A stretch of DNA of 64,000 nt, from the NCBI GenBank assembly GCA_021849805.1, contig JAJZSL010000006.1, positions 1-64,000 of the forward strand. Direction: 5' to 3'. The translations under genes and the position numbers were made by a program. Below are positions 2,173 through 63,405 of the stretch, one piece after another; position 1 is the stretch's first letter; each line of letters starts with the position of its first letter. Source of the stretch: a bacterium (GTDB lineage: Bacteria > Verrucomicrobiota > Verrucomicrobiia > Chthoniobacterales > UBA6821). The notes beneath the pieces are model-generated. The model did no database searches, was not told the origin of the DNA, and saw only the letters and a list, made by a program, of their open reading frames with translations.

Positions 2173-2327
2173 CTAGTAGCATTTTCACTGCTTTTGTAGC
2201 CGCGCATTGTGGCGTCACTTTGGTGCTCGAGTCCTCGAGGATGAGAATAGACTGTGGGTCTTGGGCTTCTCGGTGCTGGCACTAGGGTGGCTACAACTTC
2301 ATTGAACATTGAAAACACTCTAATCTC
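2173..2327 (-). repeat. ~150-bp dispersed intergenic repeat, copy 1 (uninterrupted)
   Basis: Read on the minus strand it begins GAGATTAGAGTGTTTT, passes through TTCTCATCCTCGAGGACTCG and AGTGACG, and ends GTGAAAATGCTACTAG. It is collinear with 11793-12111 (after removal of the MITE there) and with about 63263-63405. The first 16 bases are identical to the copy at 11793. It has no coding potential. Confidence 0.75.
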
Positions 2328-11800: not shown

Positions 11801-12111
11801 AGTGTTTTAGAATGTTTTAAATAATGTTGCACTCGATATAGTCACATTACTTAGAAATTCAAGGAAAGAGTGCAGAGATTTTTAAAAAAGGCAAGGCCGA
11901 AGACCAAGTGCTATCTCAACGATAAGGTGATGGGATGAGAACGCTGCACTTTTTAAATAAGATCAAGTCCATTCCCTCTAATTTCTAAGTAATTTGACTA
12001 TAATGCCAGAGGAGAGAAGTGCAAACCCACCATGTATTCTCATACTGGAGAACCTGAGTACCGGAAGTGACACCGCTATACACGGCTAGAGCATTCGTGA
12101 AAATGCCCTAG
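11793..12111 (+). repeat. ~150-bp dispersed repeat, copy 2, interrupted by a MITE
   Basis: The segments 11793-11838 and 12003-12111 together align with 2327-2173 (minus) and about 63263-63405 (plus). The left part begins GAGATTAGAGTGTTTT, identical to copy 1, and overlaps the yajQ stop codon. The right part runs from ATGCCAG through TTCTCATACTGGAG and GAAGTGAC to ATGCCCTAG. The break coincides exactly with the MITE ends at a TA dinucleotide. This 322-bp gap between yajQ and the pseudopilin gene holds no gene. Confidence 0.75.
11837..12002 (+). mobile_element. 166-bp MITE with TA ends, copy A
   Basis: Both ends carry an inverted repeat of about 22 bp, TATAGTCAAATTACTTAGAA and onward (left arm 11837-11859 with one C for A; right arm 11980-12002). 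There is no open reading frame of note. A second copy of identical length lies at 41315-41480 in opposite orientation, and a decayed third at 61945. TA at each end fits the TA target duplication of Tc1/mariner/IS630-type transposases; the mobilising transposase is not in this window. Confidence 0.85.
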
Positions 12112-41311: not shown

Positions 41312-41314
41312 TGT

Positions 41315-41480
41315 TATGGTCAAATTACTTAGAAATGACAGGAAATTGACTTGATCTTATTTAAAAAATGTAGCGTTCTCATCCCATCATCTTATCGTTG
41401 AGATAGCGCGCGGTCTTCGGCCTTGCCTTTTTCAAAAATCTCTGCACTCTCTCCTGTACTTTCTAAGTAATTTGACTCTA
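41315..41480 (-). mobile_element. 166-bp MITE with TA ends, copy B
   Basis: It is the same length as copy A (11837-12002) and closely similar in reverse orientation; shared inner blocks include GGCAAGGCCGAAGAC and GGGATGAGAACGCT. Terminal inverted repeats are TATGGTCAAATTACTTAGAA (left) and the complement of TTTCTAAGTAATTTGACTCTA (right). It fills the space between two convergent genes and its right end contributes the last three bases, the stop codon, of rfbD. Confidence 0.88.
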
Positions 41481-42410
41481 TGTACAATAAAAAGTAGTGA
41501 TGTACTCTTCGAGTGCTTCTTGCCAAGAACGCAGAGGATGCCCTAGAAGAGTTGAAAATTTTGTTGTTCTCAGAGAGGTTCGAGGTGGTCGTGGGGCTAG
41601 AAAATTTTTCATTTCTGCTAGCTTCAAAGGGGCTACCGAAGAAGTTAAGAGAGGAATACCACGAGAAGTAGCATATTGAAGAGCATATTCTCCATAGGCT
41701 CTCCAAGAACAGTTTCCACTATTGCAGAGATGATAGATACCACCTGGGACATTAGTTTCATTCTTTAAGAAAAGAGCAAACCATCTGGCTAAATCTTCTG
41801 TATAACTGGGAGAAGAAATTTTATCGTCGATGGCAGCAACTTCTTTTGAGTGACGAGCACGCTGAATGATTTGGTCGATAAAGCTAGGTCGATCGCGACC
41901 AAAAATCCAAGAAACACGAGCCACAATATGGTTCTCTGAAGTAGCTAAGACACCTTGTTCTCCTTCCAATTTACTAACTCCATAATAGCTCAAAGGAGCT
42001 GGCATATCTTCTTCGCTATAATCTCGCTCTAGCAATCCATCAAAAACATAATCCGTACTCACTTGAACAAAGCGAACTCCTCTATCAGCTGCTAAACTTG
42101 CTAATAGTGCTGGAGTAAGTGCATTGACATTCTTAGCAAGCGCAGGTTCTCTCTGGCAGCGATCAACATCAGTAAGTGCTGCAGAGTTAATGAGAACTTC
42201 TCCTGACGTCAGTTCACAAGCTTTCATTGCTTCTAGGGCTGCTTTGGGAGCTTGCAAGTCAATTTCTTCTCTTCCTAATCCAAGAACTTCCACATTAGGA
42301 AAGCTCTTTTTCCATGTTCGAATCAACGTCGCTCCAAGACGACCTCGGGCGCCTAATACAAAGATACGCTTCTTTTTCTCTGGAAAAAAATTGTTCTCTT
42401 GCAAATTCAT
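41478..42410 (-). CDS. rfbD: dTDP-4-dehydrorhamnose reductase
   Basis: RfbD performs the last step of dTDP-L-rhamnose synthesis. The product is 310 residues from ATG 42410 (a GTG three codons earlier is possible). It shows the NAD(P) motif VLGARGRLGATL, INSAALTDVDRCQREP, QVSTDYVFDG and the catalytic YYGVSKLEGE. The C-terminus ends EEYITTFYCT and its TAG stop is formed by the end of the MITE, so the original terminus may have been altered by the insertion. It is the last gene of the O-antigen transcript, 64 bp after rfbB. Confidence 0.94.
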   Translation of the reverse strand: MNLQENNFFPEKKKRIFVLGARGRLGATLIRTWKKSFPNVEVLGLGREEIDLQAPKAALEAMKACELTSGEVLINSAALTDVDRCQREPALAKNVNALTPALLASLAADRGVRFVQVSTDYVFDGLLERDYSEEDMPAPLSYYGVSKLEGEQGVLATSENHIVARVSWIFGRDRPSFIDQIIQRARHSKEVAAIDDKISSPSYTEDLARWFALFLKNETNVPGGIYHLCNSGNCSWRAYGEYALQYATSRGIPLLTSSVAPLKLAEMKNFLAPRPPRTSLRTTKFSTLLGHPLRSWQEALEEYITTFYCT

Positions 42411-61944: not shown

Positions 61945-62067
61945 TATAGTCAAATTACTTCAAAGTTACAAGAGAGAACGCAGAGATTTCTAGAAAGAAC
62001 AAGGCTAAAGATAAAATGCTATTCTCAAGAACAAATCTCATGTCTGCTATTTTAAACTCATTTGACG
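61945..62067 (+). mobile_element. Decayed MITE, copy C
   Basis: The left end TATAGTCAAATTACTT at 61945 matches the MITE inverted repeat; internal blocks GCAGAGATTTCTAGAAAG and AAGGCTAAAGATAAAATGC align with GCAGAGATTTTTAAAAAAGG and AAGGCCGAAGACCAAGTGC of copy A. The right inverted repeat is lost or reduced to an ACTCATTTGACG relic. It occupies much of the 229-bp gap before the secreted orphan gene. Confidence 0.65.
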
Positions 62068-63262: not shown

Positions 63263-63405
63263 ACTAGACCATTTTAAATAAAGTTATAACTGATGCAGTA
63301 TCAGAAACGAGGAACACAGACCCGCCGAGCCTTCTCATGCTCGAAGACTCGAGCACCGAAGTGACGTCACAACACGGTGCTACAACGTTAGTAAACATGC
63401 TCTAG
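63263..63405 (+). repeat. ~150-bp dispersed intergenic repeat, copy 3 (uninterrupted)
   Basis: It shares the right-hand block with copies at 2173 and 12003: CAGACCCGCCGAGC, TTCTCATGCTCGAAGACTCG, CACCGAAGTGACGTCAC and ATGCTCTAG. The left-hand block (CATTTTAAATAAAGTTATAA) aligns less well with ATGTTTTAAATAATGTTGCA of the copy at 11793. No MITE is present at the position corresponding to the insertion in copy 2. Confidence 0.65.

Follow-up and report, generated by a model that had tools for sequence, protein, structure and literature searches.

The ~150-bp intergenic repeat at positions 2173-2327 of the window (the whole 64,000-nt stretch of DNA analysed here) is almost certainly a gene-less MITE of ~141 bp, which carries the ~27-bp ends of a Chthoniobacterales subgroup of the IS630 family (Tc1/mariner-like), would be moved by an IS630 transposase and inserts at TA. 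A preliminary description of the window had offered a structured RNA, a non-autonomous element and a protein-binding site as candidates for this repeat, and it is the second of these that the analysis bears out and makes specific, as a MITE with IS630-family termini. The element is short, non-coding and multi-copy, has terminal inverted repeats and a target-site duplication, and shows evidence of mobility. That the family is new, while its kind is ordinary and already known, is well supported.

The repeat itself was confirmed at a level well above chance, its precise extent running from TA to TA, and a profile search of the window recovered the three copies in both orientations that had been described. 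Coordinates are collected in Table 1. Copy 3, which spans 11808-12110 (-) overall, is split by a second repeat. The MITE consensus is 141 bp long and has imperfect terminal inverted repeats of ~27 bp (left, TAGAGCATTTTCACTAACGTTGTAGCC; right, as the reverse complement, TAGAGCGTTTTAAATGAAGTTGTAGCC), with termini of the form TAGAGCrTTTT...GTTGTAGCC and TA at the ends. Of the 30 copies fitted to this consensus, 23 have TA at the left end and 22 at the right; the remaining ends have decayed, been cut off or given way to another repeat. Mean divergence from the consensus is 15.3% (26 copies). Sequence outside the TA mostly shows no relation from copy to copy; a few copies (L001, L004, L006, L016 and L028) adjoin another repeat family. 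The reported absence of coding potential agrees with our finding of no ORF of at least 110 aa across the element in 30 copies. The palindrome-rich core also stood, as CTCGAGTCCTCGAG in the consensus and GTGACGTCAC in the copy at 63265-63404; the "hairpin end" of copy 1 (TGAAAATG...CATTTTCA, about 2162-2188), on the other hand, is treated as incidental because it is partly flanking sequence.

Table 1. Positions of MITE copies, their terminal repeats and MITE2 sites in the window
Feature	Position	Strand	Profile match
MITE copy 1, full length, TA...TA	2174..2322	+	2176-2309, E 1e-33
Copy 1, left terminal inverted repeat	2174..2201	+	
Copy 1, right terminal inverted repeat; 7-bp insertion relative to consensus	2289..2322	+	
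MITE copy 2, full length, carries GTGACGTCAC	63265..63404	-	63266-63403, E 3.5e-31
MITE copy 3, left part	12001..12110	-	11996-12108, E 1e-19
MITE copy 3, right part, beyond nested insertion	11808..11838	-	11809-11863, E 0.023
Second MITE family (MITE2, TAGTCAAATTACTTAGAAAT...), inserted in copy 3 at TA	11839..12000	-	
Further MITE2 sites	41314-41481, 61945-62027		

Several other repeats lie near copy 1. Directly before it, at 1992-2164, is a degenerate tandem repeat with units of about 23/48 bp (GTGAGGTCTGACAGGGTGGA-like), and similar sequence precedes copies L004, L006, L016 and L028. A ~40-bp repeat (CCCTTCTATTGATCATTTTTATTTTGGAGAGTAG-like) at 1551-1596 has over 20 matches in the genome, and one terminator-like site was called within it, at 1576-1595. 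The same intergenic region holds an inverted pair of GTCATTCCCGC...GCGGGAATCCAG-type repeats at 1671-1725 and 1911-1965.

The family is not limited to the window. In the genome to which the window belongs (G000; 1.68 Mb, 18 contigs), collection of copies with BLAST gave 31 matches at E<=0.01, spread over most contigs and both strands, and a profile search gave 44 at the same threshold, 26 of which scored >85 bits, with some of the weak profile matches being pieces of a single copy. Thirty of the BLAST matches were taken as loci, oriented and aligned; the best-fitting 26 constitute alignment A1, which leaves out four diverged or partial copies (L027-L030) and from which the sequence-only profile R1 was built. 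The consensus matched all genomes of the genus except G003, which is 73% complete (five of six), none of 16 sister-genus genomes and one of 36 other genomes of the order, there over one terminus only. A stricter core pattern, from which the copies in sister species differ by one base, found nothing in the named genome collection. The terminus alone, written as an IUPAC pattern, was found in 42 stretches of the named genomes, all of them in records of Verrucomicrobia/Verrucomicrobiia, Chthoniobacterales, Spartobacteria or Kiritimatiellae. Because several interiors differ between the same ends, those of L068, L073, L093 and L095 being quite different, the termini mark a transposon group and not one repeat. 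G002, G004 and G005 have a long form of the MITE (L040, L054, L059 and L070), in which a GC-rich module (...GCTCGCTCCCGCTCGGCTCGCC...) separates the core from the right end. L071 appears to combine the left end of an IS630 element with the right end of a MITE.

The source of these termini is the IS630 family. At L080 the terminus lies beside a reading frame whose end reads ...YSPDLNPIEQRWSKVK...WFASCGYNII, which we take to be an IS630 signature, and this transposase frame terminates within the terminus. A search of the six genus genomes for DDE_3 (PF13358) gave zero matches in G000, G002 and G003, such that no autonomous IS630 partner was found in the window's own genome, and matches in G001, G004 and G005. 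The match in G005 is a truncated, degraded IS630 relic with the terminus directly behind it. With this relic as the query against 197 genomes of the order, we detected IS630 transposases in 14 genomes, at 21 loci in all. Six of these loci carry the terminus on both sides, four on one side and 11 on neither. The six two-ended loci represent five distinct elements of 1000-1003 bp (L112-L116; L125 repeats the L113 pair). By comparison, the terminus with <=6 mismatches had no match in 300,620 shuffled bases. L112 and L115 each carry two overlapping frames; their ORFs match the NCBIfam model "IS630 family transposase" (NF033545), and the second frame of each matches Pfam DDE_3. The overlap suggests a possible programmed frameshift; such frameshifts are common in the IS630 family. 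The MITE therefore shares its termini with autonomous IS630 elements. Its interior, compared by eye, is not visibly a deleted IS630 interior, the likeness stopping after the terminus, so the comparison lends no support to an origin from that IS through internal deletion.

The MITE has multiplied recently in the sister species G005, from which we extracted 18 elements falling into near-identical groups, all in different flanks; pairwise identity among the 15 of standard length is 88-100% (median 91%). For 31 distinct copies (loci L031-L102) we also joined the two flanks with a single TA and checked the junction for frames. A long frame crossed the junction in eight of the 31, most clearly for dxs in G004, where the MITE lies inside the gene (L039, G004:C10, element at 1501-1640). 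The orthologue in G005 is uninterrupted and 92% identical to the G004 gene. The filled site in G004 reads ...CTCC-TA...TA-GCTCAACAAGG and the empty site in G005 ...ATTC-TA-GCTCAACAAGG, the two genes matching to the left and right of the one TA where the element entered. The target duplication of the MITE is thus TA, as is expected for IS630. The dxs gene is without the MITE in G000 and G002, as well as in G005. The 138 bp added by the G004 copy are divisible by three and amount to 46 codons with no stop, so the frame stays open and this isoprenoid-pathway enzyme would be produced with an extra segment encoded by the MITE. We considered whether in-frame insertion is a habit of the family and rejected this, given that a long host frame is open through the element on both sides only in dxs, one of 40 distinct copies; at L047, L072, L078, L093 and L099 the frames are short or unidentified. 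An empty site within G000 was also sought through L016 and L006, which lie in another repeat family, and the MITE-free copies of that family align too imprecisely for a duplication to be read.

The repeat that splits copy 3 belongs to a second MITE family, MITE2, which is ~162 bp long, ends in TAGTCAAATTACTTAGAAAT and is strongly palindromic. We counted 16 context-resolved MITE2 copies in 464 kb (deduplicated by hand), and MITE2 has inserted into the first MITE on at least three occasions (copy 3, L007 and L022). It too has an IS630 partner, in G004, where the ends of L106 and L109 match those of MITE2 with 0-1 mismatches and the ORFs of L106 match IS630 models in NCBIfam and Pfam searches.

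The strong folding of the repeat could be taken as the sign of a conserved structured RNA, either a small RNA or a cis-regulatory RNA. The consensus folds as RNA with -50.2 kcal/mol (z -3.93), and the window copy folds as DNA (z -2.89). However, the consensus folds well because long inverted repeats must, and the hairpin is the inverted-repeat geometry itself. When the alignment was scored against the consensus-derived structure, standard pairs occupied 76.9% of pair cells versus 78.0% after shuffling, and double (compensatory) changes were fewer than in the shuffles. Slid controls pair less than the real pairing, which is expected because the structure was derived from the consensus. RNAalifold placed no pairs on alignment A1, and the window had no Rfam match at gathering thresholds, the sub-threshold match to PVT1_3 lying outside the element. 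Moreover, the flanks vary between copies and the copies decay independently. The check for covariation therefore found none, a result that removes the RNA reading only, and we regard a structured RNA as extremely improbable. A family of protein-binding sites centred on the CTCGAG palindrome, for example nucleoid or segregation sites, would account for the observation that the core (consensus 43-65) is the least divergent part of the element (9.5% vs 15.3% overall), yet column permutation gave no significance to the reduced divergence of the best 22-bp window (P 0.118). Most of the G005 and G004 copies shown have CTCGCGTCCTCGAG in place of the palindrome, which is therefore not conserved in the genus. 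Sharply defined TA ends and an empty site are hallmarks of transposons. The earlier suggestion of a protein-binding site is consequently true in a trivial sense of the ends, as transposase sites, and did not hold for the core, where such a site family seems scarcely credible.

Where the copies lie raises a different question. Using gene context from crude ORF calls (>=110 aa), we found 21 of the 30 copies in G000 between convergent ORFs, seven in tandem pairs and one in a divergent pair, with one unresolved. The convergent setting thus accounts for 21 of 29 resolved copies compared to a background of about 16%; in 464 kb of G000, 46 of 293 ORF pairs are convergent and hold 15.9% of intergenic bases (binomial P 2e-11). 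This 464-kb set contains eight element matches, every one of them in a convergent gap. A weaker bias was seen for MITE2, with 4 of 14 non-nested copies (Fisher P 0.009), and for the MITE in four sister species, with 10 of 28 (Fisher P 0.008), both counts hand-deduplicated with unresolved copies dropped. As a separate observation, the upstream ORF stops at the element's first TAG in seven of the 30 copies (L005, L010, L015, L021, L022, L023 and L024), always at the left end, and L003 shows a similar arrangement at the right end. The stop codon is thus provided by the TA-plus-G terminus.

One explanation for this placement is that the repeat is a MITE by origin and that the copies surviving in G000 have been domesticated as a bidirectional 3´-end structure, acting as a transcription barrier or mRNA 3´-end stabiliser between convergent genes. 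The strength of the bias in G000, its weakening for MITE2 and in the sister species, and the folding of the consensus are all consistent with such a role. Real copies also fold slightly better than column-shuffled ones (-39.1 vs -37.5 kcal/mol; 1 of 60 shuffles was as low), though this advantage could be caused by relatedness among the copies. Against domestication, as given above, shuffled alignments keep pairs at least as well as the real one and contain more compensatory changes, and convergent copies fold no better than the others (P 0.40). A scan placed no intrinsic terminator inside copy 1, and the two terminator-like sites called for copy 2, both at one end, extend across into the flank. 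Furthermore, RUP, SPRITE and IS elements are likewise enriched between convergent genes in pneumococcus, which the authors of that work explain by tolerance (PMC3049150); such a bias usually reflects tolerance and not function. We judge domestication of the copies unlikely; if true, it would mean that the lineage retained them as 3´-end structures once the transposase had been lost, and that a dead transposon family had turned into a genome-wide set of gene-end elements. Based on this analysis, we prefer tolerance over function as the probable basis of the convergent bias in G000, and purifying loss of harmful insertions is in keeping with a bias that is stronger in the species whose copies are old.

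Collectively, these data suggest how the family may have arisen and spread. An IS630 transposase would bind the ends of the MITE, move or copy it, insert it at TA and duplicate the TA. Such a transposase probably mobilised the MITE in trans, and the copies in G000 may now be immobile remnants that survive mainly between convergent genes, where they would do the least harm. With no IS630 transposase detected and 15% mean divergence, the G000 copies look like fossils. The results explain an unannotated repeat family and define an IS630 subgroup whose termini bound unrelated MITE-like interiors across Verrucomicrobiota, including Kiritimatiellae. They also provide a series for the study of MITE death, from recent activity in a sister species to fossils in G000. 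The element is of an ordinary kind, but in a poorly studied bacterial group; literature searches on MITEs in Chthoniobacterales and on MITEs generally found no paper on MITEs of the order.

Among known systems, IS630-family insertion sequences have the same terminal inverted repeats and TA ends as the MITE, but carry a transposase, whereas the MITE is without one and has an interior that looks unrelated. REP/RAYT elements are tagged palindromes of 20-40 bp with a RAYT transposase, and the size and TA-bounded terminal inverted repeats of the MITE fit IS630 better. Correia elements are known to act as promoters and IHF sites. Rickettsia palindromic elements (RPE) are palindromic mobile elements able to sit in frame inside a protein gene; an insertion of this type is a single clear case for the MITE (dxs in G004) and no family habit. 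RPE are listed with an open reading frame in PMC2229807. According to PMC2229807 and PMC3049150, the Correia/NEMIS elements of Neisseria are MITEs of ~107/155 bp with 24-26-bp terminal inverted repeats and TA termini, alike by this description to the MITE, and their long and short forms likewise differ by an internal module. RUP is found in another phylum, has another sequence and is shorter than the MITE (107 bp with 9-bp terminal inverted repeats versus ~141 bp with ~27-bp repeats), and its IS is present in the same species, pneumococcus, whereas that of the MITE is missing from its own genome. Still, RUP resembles the MITE in being small and gene-less and in its proposed movement by an IS630 transposase (that of IS630-Spn1) which recognises common termini; it also has TA targets and is found preferentially between convergent genes (PMC3049150, PMC2229807). 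The MITE is thus a further case, after pneumococcal RUP, of IS630 MITEs accumulating between convergent genes.
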